Shown here one piece after another: positions 18,350 to 31,862 of a stretch of 64,000 nucleotides of DNA. The stretch comes from Gemmatimonadota bacterium. Lineage in GTDB: Bacteria > Gemmatimonadota > Gemmatimonadetes > Gemmatimonadales > GWC2-71-9. A model generated the notes under the pieces. It searched no databases. It saw only the letters and a list, made by a program, of their open reading frames with translations, and was not told the DNA's origin. Position numbers and translations under genes: made by a program. Positions within the stretch are counted from its first letter, which is position 1. Each line of letters opens with the position of its first letter. The stretch lies in the NCBI GenBank assembly GCA_003169895.1, contig PNAE01000004.1, positions 138,487 through 202,486 on the forward strand. The letters are read 5' to 3'.

Positions 18350-19354
18350 GTGGCGGTGACGTTTTGCGTCACCGTCCCACTGACGGAACGGCTTGACCGG
18401 TTTCTCGCCGATCAGGTCGGGGTATCGCGCACGCAGTCGGCGCGGCTCATCGCCGCCGGGCGCGTGGTCGTGGAGGGCCAGGTGGCGCGCGCATCGCGCT
18501 TGCTCGCGCGGGGCGAAGTGGTGGCCGTCACGCTGCCGGAACGAGAGCCGCCGCGGCAACTCGTGCCGAGTGACATCGCACTCACGGTCGTGTTCGAGGA
18601 CGAATACCTGGCGGTCATCGACAAGCCGGCGGGGCTGGTGGTGCATCCGGCACCGGGCCACTGGGACGGCACCCTGGTCAACGCGCTGGTTGCCCGCGGA
18701 ACCACACTCGCCGGCGGTGCCGAAGGGCGCCCCGGGATCGTGCACCGACTCGACCGGGAAACCTCCGGGTTAATCATCGTAGCCAAGACCGACCTCGCCC
18801 ACCGCAGGCTCGGCGCGATGATCGCTGCGCGACGAGTGGCGCGGGTGTACGCCGCGCTCGTGTGGGGCCACCTCGACCGCAGTCCGCTGCAGATCGAGGC
18901 GCCCATCGGGCGGGACCTTCGCGATCGCAAGCGGATGGCGATACTTCCCCAAGGCCGGCGCGCCCGGACCGACGCGATCGTGGTCGCCAGGCTGGGTTCC
19001 ATGGACCTCCTCCGGCTGGAGCTGCACACCGGCCGAACCCACCAGATCCGGGTTCATCTGGAGTCAATCGGCCACCCGGTCGTCGGCGACCCGGTCTACG
19101 CGGCTGGTGGCTGGAAACGCATCGGCGGGCAGGGGCGACTGCAGGCCAGGCAGCTCGAGGCGCTCGCGCCGCGCCAGGCACTGCATGCTGCACTTCTGGC
19201 GTTCCGCCATCCGATCAGCGGAACGCCGCTCCGGCTGGCGTCCCCGTGGCCGGCCGACCTCTGGCCGCTGCTCGACGCAGCCGCGGGCCAAGGCGGATTG
19301 GCCGACCGGGAGGGGGCGCTGGCCGCAATGGGATTCTTCGGTGACGAAGGCTGA
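18350..19354 (+). CDS. rluD: RluD-type 23S rRNA pseudouridine synthase
   Basis: Converts uridines to pseudouridine in 23S rRNA. About 334 residues. An N-terminal S4-like RNA-binding domain (ERLDRFLADQVGVSRTQSARLIAAGRVVVEG) precedes the catalytic domain with GIVHRLDRETSGLIIVAK, where the Asp is the nucleophile, and GRTHQIRVHLESIGHPVVGDPVY. The start is probably the GTG at 18350, eleven bases after the lspA stop; another GTG at 18356 is close. Which uridines it modifies (RluC, RluD or another type) cannot be settled from sequence alone. The stop lies 14 bases inside the cheW gene. Confidence 0.92.
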   Translation: MAVTFCVTVPLTERLDRFLADQVGVSRTQSARLIAAGRVVVEGQVARASRLLARGEVVAVTLPEREPPRQLVPSDIALTVVFEDEYLAVIDKPAGLVVHPAPGHWDGTLVNALVARGTTLAGGAEGRPGIVHRLDRETSGLIIVAKTDLAHRRLGAMIAARRVARVYAALVWGHLDRSPLQIEAPIGRDLRDRKRMAILPQGRRARTDAIVVARLGSMDLLRLELHTGRTHQIRVHLESIGHPVVGDPVYAAGGWKRIGGQGRLQARQLEALAPRQALHAALLAFRHPISGTPLRLASPWPADLWPLLDAAAGQGGLADREGALAAMGFFGDEG

Positions 19355-19709
19355 CGCGACCCAGGGCGCCGACCGCCTCGTTGTCGCAGTGGCTGGTGTC
19401 CGGCGGTCGATCGCCGTCGGCAGCGTAATCGAAGTGTTGCGAGAAGCCCGTATCATCAGGGTCCCCGGGGGGGTACCGGCGGTACTGGGAATGGTCAACC
19501 ACCGAGGCCGGGTCCTGACGGTGGCCGACGCGCGGCGGGCTCTCGACCTCGTTGGCGAACCGACCGCCGGACGGGAGATCGTGGTGGTCCATTGGCAGCA
19601 GCGGCGCTTTGGGCTGGCGGTGGACGCCGTCGTGGAGCTGGCGGGTGACGCGCGCACGGGCCTTGCAGACATTGACCTCGAGCGAATCGCTGCGGCGATT
19701 TTCGCCTGA
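19341..19709 (+). CDS. cheW: Short CheW-domain protein
   Basis: A chemosensory coupling protein joining receptors to CheA. About 122 residues, shorter than the usual 150-160 of CheW, with the typical start VVAVAGVRRSIAVGSVIEVLRE and the conserved VPAVLGMVNHRGRVLTVADARRAL. The GTG at 19341 overlaps the rluD gene by 14 bases. It opens the run cheW-cheY-cheA-cheC that leads into the MglA/roadblock genes, so it probably serves that module. Confidence 0.85.
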   Translation: MTKADATQGADRLVVAVAGVRRSIAVGSVIEVLREARIIRVPGGVPAVLGMVNHRGRVLTVADARRALDLVGEPTAGREIVVVHWQQRRFGLAVDAVVELAGDARTGLADIDLERIAAAIFA

Positions 19710-19729: not shown

Positions 19730-20095
19730 ATGGCTCATCGGATTCTCATCTGTGATGACGCGATCTTCATGCGGACGATGATCGCCGACATTCTTGTCAG
19801 CGCGGGCTACGAGATTGCGGGCGAGGCGGAGAGTGGCCTGCAGGCCGTGGAACGCTACAAGACGCTGAAGCCCGATCTCGTGACCATGGACATCGTGATG
19901 CCCGACATGGGCGGCATCGACGCGGTGAAGGCCATCGTTGCCATCGATGCGAACGCGAAGATCCTGATGTGCAGCGCCATGGGCCAGCAGTCGCTCGTGG
20001 TCGAGGCGATTCAGGCCGGCGCGAAGGACTTTGTCGTCAAGCCGTTCCAGCCGGCGCGGGTTCTCGAAGCCGTCCAGCGCGTCCTGGGTGGATGA
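19730..20095 (+). CDS. cheY: CheY-like single-domain response regulator
   Basis: 121 residues, a receiver domain only. The acidic pocket is ICDDAIFMR (residues 7-15), the phosphorylated Asp is D54 in VTMDIVMPDMGG, the Thr/Ser position is S82 (CSAMGQQ) and the conserved Lys is K104 (VVKPFQ). This set of motifs is closest to the Bacillus or Thermotoga type CheY. CheA from the next gene would phosphorylate it; its output could be the motor or, given the context, the MglA polarity switch. Its stop overlaps the cheA start (ATGA). Confidence 0.95.
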   Translation: MAHRILICDDAIFMRTMIADILVSAGYEIAGEAESGLQAVERYKTLKPDLVTMDIVMPDMGGIDAVKAIVAIDANAKILMCSAMGQQSLVVEAIQAGAKDFVVKPFQPARVLEAVQRVLGG

Positions 20096-21600
20096 CTGAC
20101 GCCCGGCGTGCACGCTACGTCGCCCTCTTCGCCTCTGAGGCGCGATCGCTGCTGACGGGCGCCCGGCGCGCGCTCGGGCAGTGGCAGGACGACCCGGCAG
20201 AGCAGGGCGCCGCCGAGGAGATCTTCCGCGCACTGCACACCATCAAGGGCATGGCGGCATCGCTCGAGTTTGCCGCTACCGCGGACCTGGTGCATGCGAC
20301 CGAAACCACGCTGGGTGCGGTGCGGCGCGGTGACCACGCGGCAACGGCGGCATGGTTGGGCGATTTCGAGCTGGCATTGGACTCGATTTCGATCGCCTGC
20401 GAGGCAGCGATCGTCGCAGCCGGCGGCGAGGGTGCTGCCGCGACGCCCGGCACGGCTTGGACGGGTCCTCGCATCGTGCGGGTGGACCTCGACCGCCTCG
20501 ACGCGCTCCTCAGCGACCTGGGTGGTCTGGTAATGGCCCGACAGGAGTTGGAGCGCCGCGCCGAGGCGGACACGTTTTCGCCGATCGCACGGGCAGCGCT
20601 GCAGATGGCACGACGGCTTGACACGTTGCAGGCGCGTATCCTCGACGTGCGCCTGGCCCCGCTGGCCGAGGTTTTCGAACGGATTCCGCCGATCGTGCGC
20701 GACCTCGCCCGCCAGCTCGGCCGGGACGTGGCGATCGACATCAACGGGGACAATCTCGAGGTCGACCGCGCCATCCTCGACCAGTTGGCGGACCCGTTGC
20801 TGCACCTGCTGCGCAACGCGGTTGACCACGGCATCGAGTCGCCCGATGCGCGACGGGCGGTTGGCAAGCGGCCCACCGGCAGGATTGGCGTGACCGCGCG
20901 CGCGGACGGCGACGCGGTGATCCTCGAGATCACCGATGATGGCCGGGGGATCGACCGTGACGCGATCGCCGCGCGCGCGCGCGCCATGGGCATTCTCGAG
21001 GATCGGGCCGCGCTGAGCGATGATGGGCTGCTCGCGGTGCTGGAGCGGCCGGGATTCAGCACGGTGGAGCAAGTGACGACGGTGTCGGGACGTGGTGTCG
21101 GACTGGACGTCGTCGTCGCGCGGATGCGCGAAGTCGGCGCATCGTTGTCCCTCACAACGGTGCTTGGTCGCGGCACGGTCTTCAAAATCCGCCTGCCGAC
21201 GCGGCTCGGCATCGTGCGCGCCCTGGTCACCGGCATCGGCGAGGAACGCTACGTCATGCCGCTCACGCATGTCATCGAGCTGGTCGCGTGCGAGCCCGAA
21301 CTCGTGGGCCAGCGCGACGGTCGTTCCGTGCTCTTCGTTCGCGGTGAGGCGTTGCCGATCGTCGACCTGCGGCGATTGCTGCTGTACCGCGGGGACGACC
21401 TGCCGTCGCGCCGGCCTGCCGTCGTGTTCGAGGCCAACGGGCAACGCGTCGCCCTGTTGACGGACGCGGTGCTGGGGCAGGTGGACGCGGTCGTTCAACC
21501 GATCGACCGCCCGGCCGGCATGGCACGATGGCTCACCGGCGCCACGGTGCTGGACGATGGGCGACCGGCCCTGTTGATGGATCTGGCGAGTGTGGTGTGA
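20092..21600 (+). CDS. cheA: Chemosensory histidine kinase CheA (short form)
   Basis: 502 residues. An N-terminal Hpt domain has the phosphorylated His at residue 49 (ALHTIKGMAASLEF). A dimerisation domain and the HATPase domain follow, with N box LLRNAVDHGIESPDAR, G1 box DDGRGIDRDA, and GRGVGLDVV. A CheW-like regulatory domain ends the protein. The region between Hpt and dimerisation domain is short, so the P2 domain that docks CheY seems to be missing. No receptor, CheR or CheB gene is in the window. A 15-base CG tract lies at 20970-20984. The ATG overlaps the cheY stop; longer in-frame starts upstream are inside cheY. Confidence 0.94.
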   Translation: MTDARRARYVALFASEARSLLTGARRALGQWQDDPAEQGAAEEIFRALHTIKGMAASLEFAATADLVHATETTLGAVRRGDHAATAAWLGDFELALDSISIACEAAIVAAGGEGAAATPGTAWTGPRIVRVDLDRLDALLSDLGGLVMARQELERRAEADTFSPIARAALQMARRLDTLQARILDVRLAPLAEVFERIPPIVRDLARQLGRDVAIDINGDNLEVDRAILDQLADPLLHLLRNAVDHGIESPDARRAVGKRPTGRIGVTARADGDAVILEITDDGRGIDRDAIAARARAMGILEDRAALSDDGLLAVLERPGFSTVEQVTTVSGRGVGLDVVVARMREVGASLSLTTVLGRGTVFKIRLPTRLGIVRALVTGIGEERYVMPLTHVIELVACEPELVGQRDGRSVLFVRGEALPIVDLRRLLLYRGDDLPSRRPAVVFEANGQRVALLTDAVLGQVDAVVQPIDRPAGMARWLTGATVLDDGRPALLMDLASVV

Positions 21601-21629: not shown

Positions 21630-22250
21630 GTGACCTCACCCAACGACATTGACACCCTTCGCCGCGACGGCCTGCGCGAGGTGGCCACGATCGGCGCGGG
21701 CCACGCGGCGACGGCGCTGTCGCAGCTCACCAACCGGCGCATCATGATCTCGGTGCCACATGTCCACCGGGTGCGCTACGGCGAAGTTCCACAGATGGTG
21801 AGCGCATTCGGCGACCACGTTGCGGTGGTGGCGATGCGGATCCTGGGCGACCTCACGGGGCGCGCGCTGCTCACCTTCGGCGAATACGACGCGACGCGGC
21901 TCTGCGATCTGATCCTGCGGCGGCCGGCCGGCCCGCCGCGCGCGCTGGGTGAACTCGAGCAGTCCGGGCTCAAGGAAGTCGGCAACATCGTCTGTTCGGC
22001 TTATCTCACCGCGCTCAGCAACTTCATGGGAATGATGCTGCTGCCCTCGGTGCCGGCGCTGACCATCGGGCCGACGGCGCAGGCGATCGCGTCGATGGCA
22101 GACCCGCTCGAGGAAGCCAGCGACCTCGTGTTCTGCGTCGACACGGCGTTCCGCGCCGAGGGAACGGAGAATCCGCTCACCGGGGCATTCCTGTTGATGC
22201 CCGATCAGGCGTCGGTGCGCGCAATTCTTGAGGCGATCCGGATCGACTGA
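21630..22250 (+). CDS. cheC: CheC/CheX-like phosphatase of phosphorylated CheY
   Basis: About 206 residues with the duplicated CheC helix motif. The second copy, GLKEVGNIVCSAYLTALSNF, has the E-x2-N pattern and a downstream Pro expected for an active site. The first copy, GLREVATIGAGHAATALSQL, has Thr where Asn is expected, so one of the two sites looks inactive. CheC proteins remove phosphate from CheY-P; some bind CheD, which is not encoded here. The start was chosen by the GGAGG at 21620. It follows cheA directly. Confidence 0.85.
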   Translation: MTSPNDIDTLRRDGLREVATIGAGHAATALSQLTNRRIMISVPHVHRVRYGEVPQMVSAFGDHVAVVAMRILGDLTGRALLTFGEYDATRLCDLILRRPAGPPRALGELEQSGLKEVGNIVCSAYLTALSNFMGMMLLPSVPALTIGPTAQAIASMADPLEEASDLVFCVDTAFRAEGTENPLTGAFLLMPDQASVRAILEAIRID

Positions 22251-22251
22251 C

Positions 22252-23391
22252 ATGGTGGGCGCCGGCTCTCGCGACATGCTGACGGTTGCCGCGCTGGGGC
22301 GACGGCTCGGTCAGGCCGACGCCACCACGCTCAGCAACTTCGCCTGGTTCGCCGCCCGACGCGGGCACCATCGCATCGCGCTCGAGGCCGCGCGTGCTGC
22401 CGTGGCAATGCCCGATCCTCCCCGCGCGGCGTGGCGGGCGCTCGAGCGCCTTGCCGCCGGACGCACCGACGGCATGCTGCTCGCGGCCGCCGGCCACGAC
22501 AAGGGCGACCTGATTCCGCCCGGCAATCCGCTCACCACGGCAATCGTGGCACATCGGCACATGGAACTCGCCGTGGCCGAAGCCTGCTACCGCGCGGCGC
22601 TGGACCGCACGTCGCTGGCACCGGCGGCGTGGAACGGGCTTGCGGTGTTGCACGAGCAGCGGCGGGAGCGCACCGCTGCGGACAACGCATGGGCGCATGC
22701 CATCGCCGCGGGCAGTGTCGCCGGAATCCACAACCACGCGCTCGCGATGCTGCAGCGCGGCTTTGCCCATCGCGCCCGCTCCGCGCTGACTCGCTGGCTC
22801 GGACGGCCCGACACGCCGGCGTCGCTGCAATTCCTTGCCGGCTACGCCGCGCTGATCGACCAGGACCCCGCCGCGGCGATGTCGCTGCTCTCGGTGGCGG
22901 TGGGCATCGATCCTGATTCCGCCCGGGCGCAGTTCACTCTCGGCCTGGCGTGCGAGCGCCTCGGCTTGCACGCGGACGCACTGGTCGCAATTCGAAGGGC
23001 CTTGCTGCTGTCGCCGTGGTACCAGCCGCAGGTCTGGCTGCTCGAGCGAGGCGGCGACACCGCGCCCGTCGAGTTGCCCGTCGACGACGGCGAATCGAGC
23101 AACGCAGCGCACACGGACGATGTGCTGCTATCGGTCGGCCGCTCGCTGCTGCAGATGGCGCAGTTCGGCGAGGCGCTGGCGGTATTCGACCAGGTCCTGG
23201 TCCACCAGCCTTCGCAGACGGCGGCGCTTTTTCATCGCGGGGTGGCGCTGGCCAAGCTGCGTCGGTACGGCGAGGCGCTTGAGGACTGGGAGGTCGTCGG
23301 CCGCACCGATCCCGAAAGTGAACTCGGCGAGGCCAGCCGCCGCCACGCGCGTTCGGCGCGCCAGCTCGCCGCACTCTTTTCCACGCAATAG
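22252..23391 (+). CDS. TPR-repeat protein of the che/mgl operon
   Basis: About 379 residues, soluble, made mostly of helical pairs with tetratricopeptide character, for example HMELAVAEACYRAALDRTSLAPAAWNGLAVLHEQ and QMAQFGEALAVFDQVLVHQP. No signal peptide or catalytic motif is visible. TPR proteins act as protein-binding scaffolds; here the partners may be the che, LC7 or MglA-like proteins encoded around it. The ATG at 22252 follows the cheC stop by one base. The next gene starts directly after its TAG. Confidence 0.8.
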   Translation: MVGAGSRDMLTVAALGRRLGQADATTLSNFAWFAARRGHHRIALEAARAAVAMPDPPRAAWRALERLAAGRTDGMLLAAAGHDKGDLIPPGNPLTTAIVAHRHMELAVAEACYRAALDRTSLAPAAWNGLAVLHEQRRERTAADNAWAHAIAAGSVAGIHNHALAMLQRGFAHRARSALTRWLGRPDTPASLQFLAGYAALIDQDPAAAMSLLSVAVGIDPDSARAQFTLGLACERLGLHADALVAIRRALLLSPWYQPQVWLLERGGDTAPVELPVDDGESSNAAHTDDVLLSVGRSLLQMAQFGEALAVFDQVLVHQPSQTAALFHRGVALAKLRRYGEALEDWEVVGRTDPESELGEASRRHARSARQLAALFSTQ

Positions 23392-24318
23392 ATGCACGGA
23401 CCGCTGAGCGAGATCGGCCTGATCGAGGTGCTGCAACTGCTCGAGCGTGGCCGCCGGAGCGGCGTGCTGCGGATCACCGGCGCCGATGCGGAGCGGGCGT
23501 GCCGGTTGTGTCTCGCCGACGGGGTGATCGTCGCGCTGGAACCTGACGCAGGTGACGCGGCAACGCGAGCGGCGCTGTTGGCGCGGCACCTCATCAGCGA
23601 CGCGGAAGCTGCCGGCGAGCCTGGCATGCTGGACCGCCCGCTCGCCGTCGAGATGCGGGCACAGCTCGCCTTGCAATCACTCGCGGCCATGCTGCACTGG
23701 CGCCGCGGCAGATTCGACTTCGAGGCGAGCTCCGTCGCCGGCGGGCCGCTCTCGCTGTCACCGGATGCACTCGCATTTCATCTCGTGGCGTCGGAGACGC
23801 GCCGCGTCGACCTGGCCGCGCCGACGGCCGGTTTTCGCGCGGTGCCGGATTTCGCCGCCAGCGACGTGCTCGCGTCGGGCGATCCACCGCTCCTGACACC
23901 CCGCGACTGGCGCGTGCTGGATCTGATCGACGGAATCCGCGACATCGCCACACTCGCGTCGGAGCTCGACGAACCGCTGGAAGACGTGGCGGCGTGCATC
24001 CAGTCGCTCCACGCCGCCGCTATACTTGAACTCAGCCAGCCGACGCCCGAACCGGCAGTTGGCCCACGTGCGGCAATCGATGGCGGGCGATATGTCGAAG
24101 CTGCCCGGCTGCTGCACGCTCGCCTGGCCGAACATCCCGACGACGGCGAAGCGTGGCGCGCCCTTGGGCTGGCCGAGGTCGGGGCTGGCCGTTTCGAGCG
24201 CGCGATTGACGCATGGCAGAATTGGCGCGCCAGCGATCCCGAGCGGTCCGGCGACGCGGCCGCGCTGATGCAGGCGGCCCGTACCATGGTGGAGGCTCTC
24301 CGCGAACCCCGTGACTGA
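23392..24318 (+). CDS. DUF4388 and TPR protein
   Basis: 308 residues. The N-terminal about 110 residues (GPLSEIGLIEVLQLLERGRRSGVLRI) are a DUF4388 (PatA-like) domain, a family found with response regulators and gliding or twitching proteins. A central part (LTPRDWRVLDLIDGIRDIATLASEL) looks like a winged-helix type repeat, and the C-terminal 80 residues hold a TPR unit (DPERSGDAAALMQAARTM at the end). The start codon directly abuts the previous stop, and the stop overlaps the next gene. It resembles the larger DUF4388 protein at 28517, so the operon carries two versions. Confidence 0.8.
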   Translation: MHGPLSEIGLIEVLQLLERGRRSGVLRITGADAERACRLCLADGVIVALEPDAGDAATRAALLARHLISDAEAAGEPGMLDRPLAVEMRAQLALQSLAAMLHWRRGRFDFEASSVAGGPLSLSPDALAFHLVASETRRVDLAAPTAGFRAVPDFAASDVLASGDPPLLTPRDWRVLDLIDGIRDIATLASELDEPLEDVAACIQSLHAAAILELSQPTPEPAVGPRAAIDGGRYVEAARLLHARLAEHPDDGEAWRALGLAEVGAGRFERAIDAWQNWRASDPERSGDAAALMQAARTMVEALREPRD

Positions 24319-25069
24319 CGTCTCACTCCCGCCTGCATCCGCTGCCTTGCAGGGCCTGGCCTTCCTCGAACTCGGCGAACGCCTGCGACAGCGCGGCCAG
24401 TTCGCCGCCGCGGCGAGCGTCGCGCTCGCCGGACTCGGTCATTATCCCGACGTGGCCGATGCGCACGACTTGCTCGCCCGCATCCGGACGGACCAGGGCC
24501 ACGACGCGGGCGCGATCGCGGCCTGGCACGCCGCGCTTGAGTGCGACCCAGGCCACGTCGGTGCGCGCAAGGGACTCGCCTTCATCGCGTTCCGCGCCCG
24601 TGACTTCACGACTGCGGAGCGACAGCTCGAGCTCGCGGCGATGCAAGCACCCCATGACGCAAGCGTGCTGGCGGCGCTCGACCGCGTGCGATCGGTGCAG
24701 CCAGTGTCGGCCGCGGAGGATGAACCACGCTTCACCGATCCGTCCGGCGGCCTGCTATTGTATGATCTGCAAGGCATGCGGCTCGCGGGCGGCATCGGCG
24801 AGAGCGATGACGCCGCGCTCGCCGACGCGGTGGCGGCCGAGGCCGCGGGACTGTCGCGCGAAGCCGCTCGTGCCGCGCGGCTGCTCGGCCTGGGGCGGAT
24901 CCGCCACCTCGTGCTGGAAACCGCCGACGCGCGGGTGGCGGTGATGCCGGTGGCCCACGACGCGGCGCTGCTGTTGCGTCGCGGCGCCGCGATCCCGATC
25001 GGCCGGCTCCTGGCTCTTGCGGGACGCGCCGCCCAGGCCGCGGACGACTGGCTGGGGCGCATGCGATGA
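24311..25069 (+). CDS. TPR protein with C-terminal roadblock/LC7-like domain
   Basis: 252 residues. The first 130 carry TPR-like helical pairs (GLAFLELGERLRQRGQFAAAA and later units). The last 110 residues (GGLLLYDLQGMRLAGGIG onwards to LLRRGAAIPIGRLLALAGRAA) fit a roadblock/LC7 fold, the family of MglB, the GTPase-activating partner of MglA. This is the first of three LC7-type domains in a row. GTG at 24311 overlaps the upstream stop; the stop overlaps the next gene by four bases. Confidence 0.7.
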   Translation: MTDVSLPPASAALQGLAFLELGERLRQRGQFAAAASVALAGLGHYPDVADAHDLLARIRTDQGHDAGAIAAWHAALECDPGHVGARKGLAFIAFRARDFTTAERQLELAAMQAPHDASVLAALDRVRSVQPVSAAEDEPRFTDPSGGLLLYDLQGMRLAGGIGESDDAALADAVAAEAAGLSREAARAARLLGLGRIRHLVLETADARVAVMPVAHDAALLLRRGAAIPIGRLLALAGRAAQAADDWLGRMR

Positions 25070-25419
25070 ACACCAGCCAGTGGCATGACGCCCTCCGCGA
25101 ACTGACCGGTGTCACCGGAGTACTCGGCGCGCTGATCGTCTCTGCCGACGATGGTCTCGTGGTGGCCGAAACCGCAATGGATGAACTTGCCACCGCGGAT
25201 GTCGCGGCCCTCGCCGCCGCGGTGGTATCGCGTGCGGGGCGATGCACGGACGCCATGCGCGCGGGGGTTCCGTCGAGCCTGCATCTCGCGGCCGAACAGG
25301 GAGCGCTGCTCGCCATGGCCGGGCCGCCGCCGCTGTGGCTCGTGGCGGTCGCCCGGCACGACGCGGAGCTCGGCCGGCTTCGCCTGCTGCTGCGTGACTT
25401 TGCCGGCGCGTTGCGCTGA
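25066..25419 (+). CDS. Roadblock/LC7 domain protein (MglB-like)
   Basis: 117 residues and a compact single LC7 domain: a first helix (QWHDALRELTGVTGVLGALIVSADDGLVVAE), a conserved strand ending in ADDG, and an alternating strand-helix end. The family includes MglB, which binds MglA as a dimer and stimulates GTP hydrolysis at the lagging pole of gliding cells. It sits two genes before the MglA-like gene, with overlapping starts and stops, which supports such a partnership. I cannot tell from sequence whether it has GAP activity. Confidence 0.8.
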   Translation: MNTSQWHDALRELTGVTGVLGALIVSADDGLVVAETAMDELATADVAALAAAVVSRAGRCTDAMRAGVPSSLHLAAEQGALLAMAGPPPLWLVAVARHDAELGRLRLLLRDFAGALR

Positions 25420-25886
25420 TGCGCGTGCTCGAGCCATGGGTGGCGGCACCATTGACCGAGTTTCTCGGGGAATCCGGTGCGCGGGTGGCCCTGGTGATGA
25501 CCAGTGCCGGTCAGGTCATCGCGCAGCACGGATTCACCCGCTCGCTCGACGTGATGTCGGCAGCGGCGCTGGGCGCCGGCATTCTCGCGACGACCGACGA
25601 GCTGGCGCACATTCTGGACGCCCGGACGGGGTTTGGCGCCGTCGTGCACCAGGGCGTGCGCCAGGGCGTCTGGCTCGCCGGGTTTGACACGCCGCGCGGG
25701 CGATGGATCGCCCTGGTGGTGTTCGGCCCCGAGTCGTCGATCGGACTGGTCCGGCTGTTCTTTGCCCGCTTCGCCGAACAGATCGCGCGGGCGGCGCCGC
25801 CGCTCGTGCCAGCGCGCGAAGTGCTCGCCGAAGGATTCGAGCGCGAGCTTGACCAGTCGTTGCGCGCCTTGTTCGGGGCGAGTTGA
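25419..25886 (+). CDS. Second roadblock-like protein
   Basis: 155 residues. The central part (GESGARVALVMTSAGQVIAQHGFT, then MSAAALGAGILATTDELAHIL) has the strand and helix order of roadblock/LC7 domains, though it is more diverged than its neighbour. The C-terminal about 35 residues form an amphipathic helix (PAREVLAEGFERELDQSLRALFG) that could bind a partner. It starts with ATG at 25419 overlapping the upstream TGA. Its position next to the MglA-like GTPase suggests it is one subunit of a heteromeric regulator. Function is inferred. Confidence 0.72.
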   Translation: MRVLEPWVAAPLTEFLGESGARVALVMTSAGQVIAQHGFTRSLDVMSAAALGAGILATTDELAHILDARTGFGAVVHQGVRQGVWLAGFDTPRGRWIALVVFGPESSIGLVRLFFARFAEQIARAAPPLVPAREVLAEGFERELDQSLRALFGAS

Positions 25887-25888
25887 CG

Positions 25889-26494
25889 GTGGCGCGCATC
25901 AACCCCGAGCGTCGCGAGGTGACCACGTCGGTGGTGGTGTACGGCGCGCCGAAGGTCGGCAAGACGACGATCCTGCATTGCATCCAGGACCGCGTCACGC
26001 CGGAGCGTCGCGGCGGGTATGCGCCGTTCGGCAGCGATTCCGGTGTCGCCGCACTGCTCGACTGGCTCCCGCTCGACCTGGGCGTCATTGCCGGATGGCG
26101 CGCGCGAGTGGACCTGTACGCCATCCCGGATCAACGCCACGCCGACGCCACGCGACGGTTGATTCTCGCGGACACCGACGGCGTGTTGTTTGCCGCTGAT
26201 GCGCAGGCCGGCCGCCTGGCGGAGAACGTCGCCGCACTCGGCAGCTTGCGCGCCAACCTCGACGATCATGACGGCCGGCCGCGCGAACTGCCGCTGGTGT
26301 TCCTGTACACCAAGCATGATCTCCCGGCGGAACTGCTGCTGACGCGTGCCGCCTTGAATCAGGAACTCAATCCTCGCGGCCATCCCGACTTCGCCTGCAG
26401 TGCGTTGCGGGGCGAGGGCGTGCTGGAAGCGTTGCACGCCGTCATCACCGCGGTGATGCGACAGCTGGGGCCGGCGCGCGAGCAGGCCCGATGA
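25889..26494 (+). CDS. mglA: MglA-like small GTPase with altered switch motifs
   Basis: 201 residues, related to MglA, the Ras-like GTPase that sets cell polarity in gliding and type IV pilus motility. From the GTG at 25889 the start VARINPERREV aligns with the usual MglA N-terminus. The P-loop is GAPKVGKT (19-26). The segment after it, WLPLDLGVIAGWRARVDLYAIP, matches MglA well, but the expected PGQ at switch 2 is P80-D81-Q82, and the base-specificity motif is TKHD (140-143) instead of NKxD. The later ILADTDGVLFAADAQ is normal. A TTG at 25883 overlaps the upstream stop. Whether it can cycle between GDP and GTP states is uncertain. Confidence 0.85.
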   Translation: MARINPERREVTTSVVVYGAPKVGKTTILHCIQDRVTPERRGGYAPFGSDSGVAALLDWLPLDLGVIAGWRARVDLYAIPDQRHADATRRLILADTDGVLFAADAQAGRLAENVAALGSLRANLDDHDGRPRELPLVFLYTKHDLPAELLLTRAALNQELNPRGHPDFACSALRGEGVLEALHAVITAVMRQLGPAREQAR

Positions 26495-26501
26495 GCCCGC
26501 G

Positions 26502-28517
26502 ATGCTGAATCCCCATGCGCGCTTCGCCTCGTTCGTGGTCGGTTCATCGAACCGTCTCGCCGTCACGGCGGCGAAAGCGGTTGCCGAGGCGCCTGGCGCT
26601 GCCTACAACCCGTTGTTCTTCTACGCCCGCCCCGGACTCGGCAAGACCCATCTGCTCACGGCGATCGGTCACGAGGCTCACGCCATCGATCCATCGCGCG
26701 TCGTCGAGTACGTCACCGTCGACGACTTCGTCGAAGCGTATCACGCCGCGCTCGCAGCGGGGCAGGCGGAGGCCTATCGTCGCCGGTTCACCGAGGCCCA
26801 CGTCGTGCTGGTCGACGACGCGCAGCTGTTGGCCGACCAGCGCGAACTGCAGTCGGAGCTGTTGCGGTTGATCGACGTGCTGATGGCCGCCGACCGACAG
26901 ATCGTCCTCGCCAGCGACCGGCCGCCGGAGGAGATCCAGTCCCTCGATGAACGATTGATCCGCCGGTTCGCCGGCGGCCTGGTCATCGACATCGGCGCCC
27001 CCGACTATGAGACGCGCCTCGCGATTCTGTCGCGTCGCGTCGCGGAGCGGCAGGTCAGCTTCGCGCCGGACGTCCTCGCGGCCGTGGCGGAGCTGCAGAT
27101 TTCCACGGTGCGTGAACTGCTCGGCGCCTTGAACCGGTTGATCGCACAACAAGCGGTGGTGGCCGGTCCGGTGGGCGTCGAGGAGGCCCGGAAGGTGCTG
27201 GCGACGCTGGGGCACGGCCGAGCGGCTGCGGGCCTGGGGGGGACGGCTGATGATACCAACGCACGCTCCGGTTCGCGCGAATTGAACTCAGGTGCGCTGC
27301 CATCAGCCCACCGCTTCCAGCTCCCAGCGGGCGCTTCAGCGAGCGGCCCCGACGAATTCTCCTCGTTCCTCTCCGACGTGTCCACCGCCGTCTCGCACCA
27401 GGTGGACCGCTGGCGCCAGCGAGTCACCGAAGCGGCACTTCGATACCGCGCCGAAGGATTCCACACCGGGCGCCTTGACGCCCTGCTGGCCCGCGAGATC
27501 GCGGTCGATCCGGCGGAGGCGTTGACCGGATTCGAAGCGGACACCGCCCGGTTGCGGATACTGCAGCGCGAGATCGCGGCCGTCGCCCCGTCATTGCTGG
27601 TGGAGACGGCGTTGCACGACCCCGATCGCGTCGCGGAAGCCGAAGCGCTCGTGGTGGACGCGCGCGTGGCCGGTGAGCCGCTGCCGGGTCCGTCGCCGCG
27701 ATATACGCTGGCGCAGTTCGCCGAAGGGCCGTCGACGCGGCCTGCGGTGGAAGCGATCCGGGTGGCGGCGTCGGCGCCGGGTCAGCGATACAACCCGCTG
27801 ATGATCGTCGGAAAGGCCGGCGTGGGGAAGACGCACTTGCTGCACGCGCTGGGTCATGCGCTCAAGAGCGCCGGCGTCGCGCGAGTTGCGGTGTTCGACG
27901 GCAAGGACTTCGTGGACGGACTGGTTGCCGCCCTGGCCGAAGGCTCCATCGCGACGTGGCGGCAACGGCTGCGCCACGCCGACGCCTTCCTGCTTGACGA
28001 CGTCGCGGCGCTGGCGGGCAAGGAGCGCAGCCAGGAAGAGCTGTACCTGCTCTACAACCTGATGCTCGAGTCCGGTCGCCAGATGGCATTCACGGCCATC
28101 GCCGCGCCGACGCAGCTTCCGGGCCTCGAGCCGCGTCTGGCGACCCGGCTCGGCGGCGGCCTGGTGCTCGAACTCGGCGCCCCGGATCGCGAGGCGCGGG
28201 TGAGCGAGGTCGCGCGTCTGCTTGGTGGCCCTGGCGATTCCGATCTGGTCGACTACCTCGGCGCGCGCGCCGTCGGCTCATTGCGAGAAGTGCAGCAGCT
28301 GGTGCAGCGGTTGTTGAGCGCCGCCGAGGAACGGGAAACGGTGCTGTCGATGGATGTCGCGCGGGCAATACTGGAAGGAACTCCCGGCCCGCCGCGCCGG
28401 GCGCCGCGCCGGGGCAGCGGTCTCCTCGCGCCCGGCAGCGGCGCGATTCGCTCGCGCGAGAAGATGATCGAGACGTGGCCGGACATCACCGACCGCTTGC
28501 TCGAGGAGTGGAGCTGA
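26502..28517 (+). CDS. Protein with two DnaA-like AAA+ ATPase domains
   Basis: 671 residues. Domain 1 (about 10-215) closely follows DnaA domain III: Walker A ARPGLGKT (42-49), Walker B VVLVDDAQ (101-108), sensor 1 IVLASDRPPEEI, the arginine-finger region LDERLIRRFAGGLVIDI, and sensor 2 VRELLGALNRL. A helical linker (about 290-400) with RLDALLAREIAVDPAEALTGF leads to domain 2 (about 405-620), with Walker A GKAGVGKTHLL near 436, LLDDVAAL near 492 and REVQQLVQRLL. The DnaA domain IV helix-turn-helix is absent, and the C-terminus is a short basic tail. It is therefore not the replication initiator. Its place after the MglA-like gene suggests an ATP-driven partner of the polarity module. Confidence 0.85.
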   Translation: MLNPHARFASFVVGSSNRLAVTAAKAVAEAPGAAYNPLFFYARPGLGKTHLLTAIGHEAHAIDPSRVVEYVTVDDFVEAYHAALAAGQAEAYRRRFTEAHVVLVDDAQLLADQRELQSELLRLIDVLMAADRQIVLASDRPPEEIQSLDERLIRRFAGGLVIDIGAPDYETRLAILSRRVAERQVSFAPDVLAAVAELQISTVRELLGALNRLIAQQAVVAGPVGVEEARKVLATLGHGRAAAGLGGTADDTNARSGSRELNSGALPSAHRFQLPAGASASGPDEFSSFLSDVSTAVSHQVDRWRQRVTEAALRYRAEGFHTGRLDALLAREIAVDPAEALTGFEADTARLRILQREIAAVAPSLLVETALHDPDRVAEAEALVVDARVAGEPLPGPSPRYTLAQFAEGPSTRPAVEAIRVAASAPGQRYNPLMIVGKAGVGKTHLLHALGHALKSAGVARVAVFDGKDFVDGLVAALAEGSIATWRQRLRHADAFLLDDVAALAGKERSQEELYLLYNLMLESGRQMAFTAIAAPTQLPGLEPRLATRLGGGLVLELGAPDREARVSEVARLLGGPGDSDLVDYLGARAVGSLREVQQLVQRLLSAAEERETVLSMDVARAILEGTPGPPRRAPRRGSGLLAPGSGAIRSREKMIETWPDITDRLLEEWS

Positions 28518-30139
28518 TGGCGATCAAGGGATCGCTCAGGGAAGCGTCGCTTCCCGATGTGGTGCAGCTGCTCTTCCTCGGTCGCCGCACCGGCTGCCTG
28601 TCGGTCGCGAGCGAGCACAACTTCGGCTCGATCTGGTTCGACGAGGGCTGGATCACGTTCGCCGGCATGCTGGCGCGCCCCGATCGCATCGGCGAGCGCC
28701 TGGTCGCCGCCGGCAGGATCTCGGTCGAGCAACTCGAGGAAGCAATCGCAGCTCAGGCGGCGATTCCGGGTCGTCGCCTTGGTGAGATGCTGGTCCATCT
28801 CGGCTTGGTGACGGCGGCCGAACTTGGCGGCGAGCTGCGACGTCAGGTCGAAGAGACGATCTACACGTTGTTCAGCTGGACCAGTGGGACGTTTTCGTTC
28901 GAGGTCGGGGTTCGGCCCGACGGCCCCGATGCATTGCTGCGCCTCAACCCCGAAGGGCTGCTGCTCGAGGGCGCGCGCCGGGTGGATGAATGGAGCGTGA
29001 TCGCCAAGAAAATCACGACGGTCGATGCGGTCTACGCCTTCGAAGGCGAGCCGCGCAGCACCGCCGACAACAATGTGCAGCTGGTGGAGTCCGAACGCCG
29101 GGTGTTACCGCTGATCAACGGCGTCAACACGGTGCGGGAGATCGTCGATGGCACCGGCCTGAGCGAGTTCGAGGTCTGTCGCGTGCTGTTCGGCCTGCTG
29201 TCCGCCGGCCGCCTGCGCCGCGTGGCGACGGCGCCGCCGCCGTCGGCACGCCAGGATTTGTCGCGCGTTGACGAGCATCGCAATCTCGGCATCGCCTTTT
29301 ATCGCACCGGCATGCTGATCGAAGCCGAGCGCGAATTCCGCCGGGTGCGCGAACTCCGGCCCGATGACAGCATCGCACCGTTTCACCTGGGCCTGATCGC
29401 CCTGCGGCAGGCACGGTGGGATGATGCAGTGGACCAGTTGCAGCGCGCCGCCGAACGTGAGGGCTCGCGGGTCGCCGTGTTGCACAACCTGGCGCTCGCG
29501 CTCGAAGCGGCCGGACGACTCGACGACGCCGATGCCGCGCTCACGGACGCCTTGCAGCGGCACGGCCACGATGCGCGCCTGTGGACCGGCTGGGGCCTGC
29601 TGGCGCTGCGCCGCAACGACGCCCCCCACGCCCTCGAGCGGTTTGCGCGGGCGCGCGACCTGCTCGGCGACACCCTGCCGCCCGCGCGCTGGTTCTGGGG
29701 CTGCGGCTGGGCCCAGGCGCTGTCCGAAGCGTGGCCCGATGCCCTGAGCACCGTGCGCGAGGGCGTTGCCGCGTATCCCGACCACCCGGTACTCCGGACG
29801 GCCCTCGGCGTGTTGCTCGAAGGCACTGGCGAGGTCGGCGAGGCCGAGGCGCACCTGCGCCACGCGTTGGGCGAAGATCCCAGCATACCGCAGATCTCCA
29901 AGAATCTCGGCGACCTGCTTTACCGTGCCGGGCGCTGGGACGAGGCCGAAGAGGCATACGAACGTGCGACCAGGCTCGCGCCCACCCTCGGCGACGACAT
30001 CTACTTCAAGCTCGGCAACCTGGCGTGCCGGCGCGGTGACCTGAACGTCGCTCGCCAGCATTGGGAACGCGCGATCGGGCTCAACCCCGACCACGCGCTG
30101 GCACGCGCCAACCTTGCCGGATCGGGTATGCCGGCATGA
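28517..30139 (+). CDS. Large DUF4388 and TPR protein
   Basis: About 540 residues. The N-terminal DUF4388 domain (AIKGSLREASLPDVVQLLFLGRRTGCLSV) is followed by a helical region with RIGERLVAAGRISVEQLEEA and by a second domain with PLINGVNTVREIVDGTGLSEFEVC, resembling the central part of the DUF4388 protein at 23392. From about residue 260 five or more TPR units run to the end (NLGIAFYRTGMLIEAEREFRRVRELRPDD and others). The ATG overlaps the stop of the AAA+ gene (TGATG). It is probably a scaffold joining regulators to the MglA or CheA complex. Confidence 0.8.
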   Translation: MAIKGSLREASLPDVVQLLFLGRRTGCLSVASEHNFGSIWFDEGWITFAGMLARPDRIGERLVAAGRISVEQLEEAIAAQAAIPGRRLGEMLVHLGLVTAAELGGELRRQVEETIYTLFSWTSGTFSFEVGVRPDGPDALLRLNPEGLLLEGARRVDEWSVIAKKITTVDAVYAFEGEPRSTADNNVQLVESERRVLPLINGVNTVREIVDGTGLSEFEVCRVLFGLLSAGRLRRVATAPPPSARQDLSRVDEHRNLGIAFYRTGMLIEAEREFRRVRELRPDDSIAPFHLGLIALRQARWDDAVDQLQRAAEREGSRVAVLHNLALALEAAGRLDDADAALTDALQRHGHDARLWTGWGLLALRRNDAPHALERFARARDLLGDTLPPARWFWGCGWAQALSEAWPDALSTVREGVAAYPDHPVLRTALGVLLEGTGEVGEAEAHLRHALGEDPSIPQISKNLGDLLYRAGRWDEAEEAYERATRLAPTLGDDIYFKLGNLACRRGDLNVARQHWERAIGLNPDHALARANLAGSGMPA

Positions 30140-30972
30140 GCGACGACGCTGGCGCACTGCGGACCGAGTTCAACCGCCTCGAGGCGGCGCTCAACGCACC
30201 CGTGCCGGCGAGCGAGCGCACCGCGCTCAGTGCGGCCATCGTCGCGCTGTTCAAGCGAACTGACACGCAGATCAACGAGCTCACCGAGTTCAAGGCGCGG
30301 ATCCGGGAACTCGTCGATGCCTTCAAGGCATTGCCACCTGATCGTGTCGCACCCAGCGTGCGCCACGATCACCTCGGCGCGTCGTCGCATATCGAACGCG
30401 GTTGGAGCGCTCTGGCCTCCGGTGATTGGAGTGCGGCGCAGGACCAGTTGCACCAGGCGCTCGCCCTCGACTCGACCAGCACCACGGCGCAAGCGTTGCT
30501 CGGTTGGGCGCTGATGTACGAGAATCGCCACGATGAGGCGCTGCAGATCTGCCTGCAGGTGCTCGTCCGTGAGCCGGAGCATGGTCTCGCCCGCGTCGCC
30601 GTCGGAGCGATCTGTCTTCGCAAGGGCATCGTGGGCGAAGCGATCGAGCACTTGTCGCGTGCCGCGGCGCGGGCCGGCGATGCGCGCGCGACACTGTACG
30701 CCAACTTCTGGCTCGGCGTCGCGTACCTCGAGCGGGACATGCAGACCGATGCGGTGGAGTTCCTTCGCCGAGCGGTCACCCAGGGGCCGAATCTCGGTGA
30801 AGGATGGTCCGAACTGGGGCGAGCACTGTGGCTGCGCGGGCAGCAGAATGAAGCGCGCGAGGCGTGGACGATCGGGGCCGCCATCCGGCACTCGCCCCAC
30901 GCGCAGCGGTGCGCCGCGTTGCTCGAAACCGTGAATGCAGGAGGAGCACCACCACGTTCACCGTTCGGCTGA
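30136..30972 (+). CDS. TPR protein at the end of the polarity operon
   Basis: 278 residues. The N-terminal 90 residues are helical and charged (TEFNRLEAALNAPVPASERTALSA, then KRTDTQINELTEFKARIREL), possibly a coiled coil. TPR units follow (IERGWSALASGDWSAAQDQLHQALALD, ALLGWALMYENRHDEALQICL, YLERDMQTDAVEFLRRAV). The ATG at 30136 overlaps the upstream stop. The 3' end overlaps the peptidase gene if that gene uses the GTG at 30909. No enzyme motif is present, so it is likely another scaffold. Confidence 0.8.
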   Translation: MSDDAGALRTEFNRLEAALNAPVPASERTALSAAIVALFKRTDTQINELTEFKARIRELVDAFKALPPDRVAPSVRHDHLGASSHIERGWSALASGDWSAAQDQLHQALALDSTSTTAQALLGWALMYENRHDEALQICLQVLVREPEHGLARVAVGAICLRKGIVGEAIEHLSRAAARAGDARATLYANFWLGVAYLERDMQTDAVEFLRRAVTQGPNLGEGWSELGRALWLRGQQNEAREAWTIGAAIRHSPHAQRCAALLETVNAGGAPPRSPFG

Positions 30973-31862
30973 TCGCCCTGTTGTTGCAGGTCACTCCGGC
31001 GCCGGCGCCGGAGCGGCGAATTGACGTTGGTGACATCACCGTCCTTGCCGACCGGCGTAACCTGTCGCTGGGCACGGCGCTGGCCGAAGCCGCGAGTGCG
31101 CCGCATGACTGGCTCGGCCTGGGGCGAATGGATGCTGGTCCGCTGGTGCTGATCCTGGCCCGGGACCGCGCGGAGTTCACCCGTTGGTCGCGCGGTCGGC
31201 TGCCAAGTTGGGGAGCCGGGGTCACCTTCCCCGGCAGCCGGGTGGTGATCATCCGCCTCGACGCGGGGGACCCGTATCAAACACTCCGGCACGAGCTGGC
31301 TCACGTGGTCCTGCACCAGGCGGTGCAGGGTCGTGTGCCGCTCTGGTTCGACGAAGGCTACGCGGTGCTCGCGGCGCAAGAGTACGGGCGGTTCGCGGCG
31401 CTGCGCCTCAACCTTGCGGTCGCGGCGGGGCGGGTGCCGGACCTGCGTGCCCTCGACGGAGCGTTGAGGGGCAGCGACGACGACGCGGAAACGGCGTACG
31501 CGCTGGCGGGATCGGCCGTCGCGGAACTCGAGCGGCGTGGTCGCAATGGTCAGCTGGCGCCGCTCCTCAAGGAACTCGAACGTGGCGTTCCCTTTGATGA
31601 CGCGGTGGCATCCAGCACCGGTTTCACGCTCGATCGGTTCGAGGACGCCTGGCAGCAGTCGCTCCGCCGGCACTACAACTGGGCGATCTGGCTCGCGACC
31701 GGTGGAATGTGGCTGCTGGTGACCCTGATCCTGAGCTGGGCGGCGGCCACTCGCCGCCGCCGCGAGGCACCCCGGCGAGCAGCGCTCGACGTCGGGTGGC
31801 CCGAGCCGCCGCCAGATAACGAAACGATTACGATTCAAGAGGTTGGGCCCCGATCAACTTGA
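30909..31862 (+). CDS. Membrane-anchored gluzincin-type zinc peptidase
   Basis: About 317 residues from the GTG at 30909. The metal motif HELAHVVLHQ with PLWFDEGYAV downstream is typical of DUF1570/peptidase MA gluzincins. A hydrophobic signal (FTVRLIALLLQVTPAPA) precedes the domain and a membrane helix (LATGGMWLLVTLILSWAAA) sits near the C-terminus, followed by a charged tail, so the enzyme domain would face the periplasm. The start is unclear: a good AGGAGG at 30939-30944 faces ACG at 30954, TTG at 30981 lies further on, and GTG at 30909 overlaps the TPR gene. Substrate unknown; it may process a surface protein of the same module. Confidence 0.75.
   Translation: MRRVARNRECRRSTTTFTVRLIALLLQVTPAPAPERRIDVGDITVLADRRNLSLGTALAEAASAPHDWLGLGRMDAGPLVLILARDRAEFTRWSRGRLPSWGAGVTFPGSRVVIIRLDAGDPYQTLRHELAHVVLHQAVQGRVPLWFDEGYAVLAAQEYGRFAALRLNLAVAAGRVPDLRALDGALRGSDDDAETAYALAGSAVAELERRGRNGQLAPLLKELERGVPFDDAVASSTGFTLDRFEDAWQQSLRRHYNWAIWLATGGMWLLVTLILSWAAATRRRREAPRRAALDVGWPEPPPDNETITIQEVGPRST

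Follow-up and report, generated by a model that had tools for sequence, protein, structure and literature searches.

DnaA2, a tandem DnaA-domain-III AAA+ protein encoded beside an MglA-like GTPase in Gemmatimonadota

The replication initiator DnaA and its relatives Hda and HdaA, the MglA/MglB/Frz polarity module of Myxococcus, and the tandem AAA+ proteins of the p97/Cdc48 type are the described systems closest to the locus considered here. To our knowledge, the AAA+ core of DnaA has no role beyond replication, its control, or the regulation of genes at DnaA boxes, and we know of no DnaA-like partner in the Myxococcus module, which combines the Ras-like GTPase MglA with roadblock proteins and a chemosensory system. 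Group 1 MglA has been recorded in the Gemmatimonadetes by Wuichet and Sogaard-Andersen (PMC4316618), who describe PATAN-domain neighbours for some MglA proteins; the word DnaA is absent from that paper.

The window analysed here, a stretch of 64,000 nucleotides from contig PNAE01000004.1 of a Gemmatimonadota bacterium, likewise combines a gene for a Ras-like MglA with roadblock and chemosensory genes, and has at positions 26502-28517 a gene for which, with its family, the name DnaA2 is used. DnaA2 shares with DnaA domain III the fold, Walker A and B, sensor 1, box VII, the arginine finger and sensor 2, but differs from DnaA in the lack of domains I, II and IV, in its two domain-III copies per chain, in an added linker and tail, in the altered single-stranded DNA (ssDNA) residues of the initiator-specific motif (ISM) of domain 1, and in being encoded beside mglA and che genes. 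Like Hda and HdaA, it is a DnaA-type AAA+ protein without domain IV, and its domain 2 fits the Hda profile and keeps the arginine finger, whereas the fusion of this Hda-like half to a DnaA-like domain gives two domains rather than the single domain of Hda. The p97/Cdc48 proteins, which also have two AAA+ domains per chain, are distant Foldseek matches (about 12-17% identity) from another AAA+ clade; both copies in DnaA2 belong to the initiator clade, and the copy number varies by lineage. DnaA2 is a new family from a known AAA+ clade within a known type of signalling locus, and literature searches found no description of it.

Two AAA+ halves, a linker and a tail

The gene and the parts of its product are placed as follows.

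26502..28517, forward strand: DnaA2, tandem DnaA-domain-III AAA+ protein of 671 amino acids (open reading frame, Pfam, AlphaFold2)
26502..27209, forward strand: domain 1, residues 1-236, DnaA domain III (Pfam, alignment, superposition, conservation)
27351..27674, forward strand: helical linker domain, residues 284-391 (Pfam, AlphaFold2, structure and genome searches)
27696..28379, forward strand: domain 2, residues 399-626, second DnaA/Hda-like AAA+ domain (Pfam, conservation, landmark residues)
28449..28514, forward strand: conserved C-terminal tail RSREKMIETWPDITDRLLEEWS (family motif EKxVWxWPxxxxRLIEE)

The protein has two matches to the Pfam family Bac_DnaA (165 and 131 bits), the first over residues 2-163 (E 4e-48) and the other in the second half of the chain (E 1.4e-37). 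It starts at domain III, with no Pfam match to DnaA_N (domain I), and the helix-turn-helix of domain IV (Bac_DnaA_C, PF08299) was found in no piece of DnaA2 at E values of up to 1, the linker and C-terminus included, and the families matched most often in 38 DnaA2 members do not include it. By way of contrast, the genome's own DnaA matches PF08299 at 4e-26, as well as DnaA_N. The host genome (3.42 Mb, 98% complete) carries this canonical dnaA, complete with domains I, III and IV in 463 amino acids, on a separate contig, which rules out DnaA2 as its only DnaA; a chance reading frame or an artefact is likewise ruled out, by orthologues at 39-82% identity. The isoelectric point is acidic (4.6-5.7), and a scan for promoters and terminators returned chance-level matches only. 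On one short metagenome contig (L052, 2217-4231), DnaA2 is split across two frames, probably through a sequencing error or as a pseudogene.

The AlphaFold2 model, built with 37 orthologues, has a pLDDT of 87.5 and contains two folded AAA+ domains, a helical linker (residues 285-390) and a short C-terminal helix, with low-confidence stretches at residues 244-285 and 638-660. Domain 1 aligns with domain III of Bacillus subtilis DnaA over 232 residues with zero gaps, and superposes on that domain (8bv3) at 41% identity, with an rmsd of 1.6 A and a TM score of 0.94 by target. These data, together with the Pfam match and the sensor 1, box VII and sensor 2 residues, uphold the original prediction that domain 1 is a copy of DnaA domain III, as the Pfam results do for the absence of the domain IV helix-turn-helix. 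None of the three outcomes named beforehand as contrary to that prediction (domain 1 without a DnaA-like fold, a DNA-binding domain at the C-terminus, or DnaA2 as sole DnaA) was found.

In domain 1 of the window protein, the landmark residues are Walker A G45..H50, Walker B D105-D106, sensor 1 D139, box VII R151, the arginine finger R155 and sensor 2 R204, and in domain 2 they are Walker A K443, Walker B D499-D500, AID-1 R491, box VII R545, the arginine finger R549 and sensor 2 R595, the sensor 1 Asp being missing from the latter domain. In both domains, Walker A, the Asp-Asp of Walker B and the box VII and finger arginines hardly vary across 38 orthologues; the sensor 2 Arg is present in 38/38 first and 35/38 second domains. 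The domain 1 motifs SDRPPEEI (sensor 1), ERLIRRF (box VII and arginine finger) and VRELLGALNR (sensor 2) are conserved at approximately 90-100% in the same set.

The two halves were compared residue by residue in 23 Gemmatimonadales proteins, using the landmarks of Escherichia coli DnaA (PMC5742627). The sensor 1 Asp (D269) is present in 22 of the 23 first domains and nine of the second, while the AID-1 Arg (R227) is found in no first domain and 22 of the second, and box VII (R281) and the arginine finger (R285) of domain 2 are each kept in 23/23. At the H-motif site (V211), domain 1 has His in 20/23 and domain 2 has Ile or Val in 20/23; at the B-motif site (R245), there is Glu in 22/23 first domains and Arg in 20/23 second domains. 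Changes at N187 and I190 of B. subtilis DnaA harm its work on the DnaA-trio (PMC10721633), and the corresponding sites of domain 1 are Glu78 (33/38) and His81 (34/38). The ssDNA-binding ISM residues are thus replaced by Glu, His and Glu in domain 1, and retained as Ile/Val and Arg in domain 2. Domain 2 is more than the diverged second copy first described, since several interface residues of DnaA that are missing from domain 1 are present in it. From these residue patterns we infer that the Gemmatimonadales halves have taken on complementary tasks, with domain 1 reading ATP and domain 2 donating the interface and finger, and their acidic and basic faces could pair. In the one-domain members of family f9 (L117-L119), the initiator-specific segment of domain 1, between Walker A and Walker B, is six residues shorter.

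The linker has no relative in Pfam or among PDB structures, and occurs once per genome, only in DnaA2; a lone stray match of 24 residues in one genome (G045) has an E value of 0.06, which is the chance level. The EKxVWxWPxxxxRLIEE tail is common to one-domain and two-domain members. A search for this pattern in 28 genomes matched 12 of them, once each and in all 12 cases in DnaA2, with zero control hits and no match in any other protein.

The MglA and chemosensory locus

Around DnaA2, the window contains the following genes.

19107..19709, forward strand: CheW
19730..20095, forward strand: CheY-like receiver
20092..21600, forward strand: CheA kinase (Hpt, HATPase, CheW)
21630..22250, forward strand: CheC phosphatase
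22228..23391, forward strand: TPR protein
23392..24318, forward strand: DUF4388 and TPR protein
24311..25069, forward strand: TPR and roadblock/LC7 protein
25066..25419, forward strand: roadblock/LC7 protein
25419..25886, forward strand: roadblock/LC7 (MglB-like) protein
25883..26494, forward strand: MglA-like small GTPase
28514..30139, forward strand: DUF4388 and TPR protein, overlapping the stop of DnaA2, of which it is the most constant neighbour
30136..30972, forward strand: TPR protein

The MglA-like gene stops seven bases ahead of the ATG of DnaA2, in keeping with the original prediction, which placed the gene directly behind this GTPase, and the order then continues with DUF4388/TPR, TPR and a protease-like gene. 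The adjacency is general: in 36/36 loci with upstream sequence, mglA is the gene that immediately precedes DnaA2 (gap of -16 to 114 bp, from tblastn matches), and the gene that follows is DUF4388/TPR in 36/37, the exception being a contig end. The order CheA-CheC-TPR-DUF4388-roadblocks-MglA-DnaA2-DUF4388/TPR, followed in some cases by CheR-CheD-CheB-CheW-CheW, recurs across the Gemmatimonadota, with CheR, CheD, CheB and CheW downstream in most lineages beyond the genus of the window. In that genus (window positions 28514-31000), CheR, CheD, CheB and the tandem CheW are missing downstream, leaving a chemosensory cluster without the methylation branch.

The cluster MglA of the same genus, and that of L037, has IPDQ in place of VPGQ at G3 and TKHD in place of NKxD at G4; on sequence grounds, the cluster GTPase of the window's genus may no longer switch normally. 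A second MglA is encoded on another contig of the window genome (G000:C6:31416-31895); it adjoins a roadblock-like gene (L154, 8728-9845), and the two may constitute an MglA/MglB pair of their own.

The locus of family f5 has lost both its che genes and mglA, and retains DnaA2, the DUF4388/TPR gene and the protease-like gene. Reading of the sequence places an isoleucyl-tRNA synthetase-like frame upstream in two f5 loci (L124, L126), as in the window, and the two sites may therefore be the same. Despite this separation, MglA is encoded elsewhere in 26/26 f5 genomes that carry DnaA2 and is present in 7/34 that lack it (one of the seven being a fragment), an association with a Fisher p of 8e-11 when kinship is ignored. 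Each of two genera (g79 and g111) includes species with both DnaA2 and MglA and species with neither, which suggests that the two have been lost together repeatedly. In one genome (G039; L149, 9908-10145), the che-MglA cluster is kept, with a gap of 237 bp at the position of DnaA2, and DnaA2 is thus not required for the module. Copies of PilT number two to five in most DnaA2 carriers (one in G203) and zero to two in the tested f5, f7 and f8 genomes without DnaA2, although two or three are also present in f2 genomes in which no DnaA2 was detected.

Architectures and history of the family

DnaA2 is widespread across the class Gemmatimonadetes in three architectures: a single domain, two domains of which the second is degenerate or has no lid, and two full domains. 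Its intact members have the linker and tail in common, as well as domain 1. The one-domain members (about 392-400 amino acids) come from families f6 and f9 (L117-L122), and the lid of domain 2 is absent from the two-domain proteins of f4 and of some f2 members (L128-L131). In f5, Walker A, Walker B and the lid of the second domain are lost in 6/6 proteins, both box VII arginines are kept in 6/6, and the alpha/beta core still folds in the prediction; this degeneration may represent one evolutionary event. In another member (G031, L100), domain 2 retains Walker A, whereas its arginine box is lost. Full tandems are typical of the relatives of the window, with about 56 of the 61 genomes of its own family matching well beyond canonical DnaA in a hand count. 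Two proteins were left out of the interpretation: L123, an apparent run-on frame, and L099, which is without much of the domain 1 lid and domain 2.

Phylogeny of the halves, put forward as a check on the original prediction, separates domain 1, domain 2 and the DnaA of the Gemmatimonadota into three groups, but the AU tests reject neither a grouping of the two domains with one another nor of either with the DnaA of the phylum, results that are compatible with internal duplication as well as with two captures. Outside the phylum, no member was found in 149 genomes of one phylum at a threshold of 1e-60, which returned DnaA-like matches only, nor in 299 genomes of a second, at a threshold of 1e-95 that misses divergent members and had no positive control. 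Many Gemmatimonadota genomes carry DnaA without DnaA2, and some of these absences may be false, given that the diverged copy of one genome (G108) fell below the profile threshold. That DnaA2-like stretch (L150, 9998-10825), at 30% identity, lies between mglA and a DUF4388/TPR gene.

Proposed function and its alternatives

The conserved che-roadblock-MglA-DUF4388 cluster, and the joint occurrence of DnaA2 and MglA in genomes where the two are unlinked, favour a role in the MglA/chemosensory module over one in replication. We regard it as reasonably probable that DnaA2 is an ATP switch or scaffold derived from DnaA domain III, which works with MglA-type GTPases and, in most lineages, with a chemosensory and DUF4388/TPR module, and is not an initiator of chromosome replication. 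The recruitment of an initiator-derived ATPase beside MglA, as originally predicted, is supported by both neighbourhood and co-occurrence; the role in polarity or in building a surface machine, and the filament or internal dimer, that were proposed with it are hypothetical.

The mechanism may be envisaged as follows. Domain 1 would be the nucleotide-sensing half, and domain 2 a built-in Hda-like partner, presenting its finger, and the face with the interface residues of DnaA, to a domain 1; the finger would contact the ATP on domain 1, in cis or on the next chain, by analogy with the action of Hda or a neighbouring DnaA on DnaA. ATP-dependent assembly and ATP hydrolysis would provide the two states of the switch. 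The linker and WxWP tail would dock onto a protein of the module, most likely the adjacent DUF4388/TPR protein, and assembly or hydrolysis would signal through them to this protein and to MglA, so that a surface machine might be placed or activated upon a chemosensory/MglA signal. Type IV pili would be the likeliest such machine, as the copy numbers of PilT suggest. A switch between the two domains would not be general to the family, since the single-domain members have no domain 2; these would pair homotypically. A more specific form, which we advance only tentatively, is that the initiator ATPase core forms an ATP-controlled, DNA-free assembly, with domains 1 and 2 head to tail, that reads or gates MglA and links chemosensory input to the site of a motility machine.

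It is unlikely that DnaA2 acts as an assistant to the DUF4388/TPR protein and the protease-like gene, its adjacency to mglA being incidental; these are the only partners that stay linked in f5, but MglA is kept elsewhere in every f5 genome with DnaA2, and is mostly absent otherwise.

A regulator of the Hda type, binding canonical DnaA and triggering its ATP hydrolysis through the finger, would couple replication to the chemosensory/MglA state, and is distinctly unlikely. Domain 2 fits the Hda model and keeps the finger. A search of the genome with the DnaA ATPase model returned, beyond DnaA and DnaA2, only a weak match to an IS21 IstB ATPase, with no separate Hda-like gene found. However, E. 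coli Hda aligns without the AID-1 and box VII Arg that domain 2 retains, the window protein scores 154 bits against an Hda cut-off of 194.8, with the best stretch in its second half (144-175 bits in the members listed, all below the cut-off), a pattern scan found no conserved clamp-binding motif in 38 members, the presence of DnaA2 follows MglA, and many genomes have DnaA without it.

A second initiator or helicase loader, which has lost domain IV and acts on ssDNA or the origin through its AAA+ domains, is very improbable. With the H- and B-motif-type residues that it retains, domain 2 may still bind ssDNA, but the His and Glu at the equivalent sites of domain 1, the shorter f9 segment, the absence of a helix-turn-helix, the acidic isoelectric point and the signalling neighbourhood all argue against such a role.

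That DnaA2 is a true DnaA, as automatic annotation would have it, has next to no chance of being correct: the window protein reaches 402.5 bits in the DnaA equivalog model TIGR00362 (cut-off 343.9), but two-domain members pass because the scores of two domain-III copies add up, domain IV is absent, and a canonical DnaA is encoded elsewhere. The two-domain members tested (the window protein, L125, L047, L136, L133, L037 and L046) score 371-529 bits, and some outscore the genome's real DnaA (507 bits); two-domain DnaA2 would thus be named DnaA, and is probably annotated as such in public genomes.

Reading DnaA2 as an ATP switch of the MglA module, the evidence suggests that a part of the replication machine has been reused for a signalling job in the Gemmatimonadota. 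Because nature provides versions with one domain, with a pseudo-second domain and with two domains, the part played by each half is open to testing. If this reading is true, an initiator would have been reused as a signalling ATPase, with the ATP switch of DnaA kept, the reader of DNA boxes dropped, and a Ras-like GTPase as its companion.
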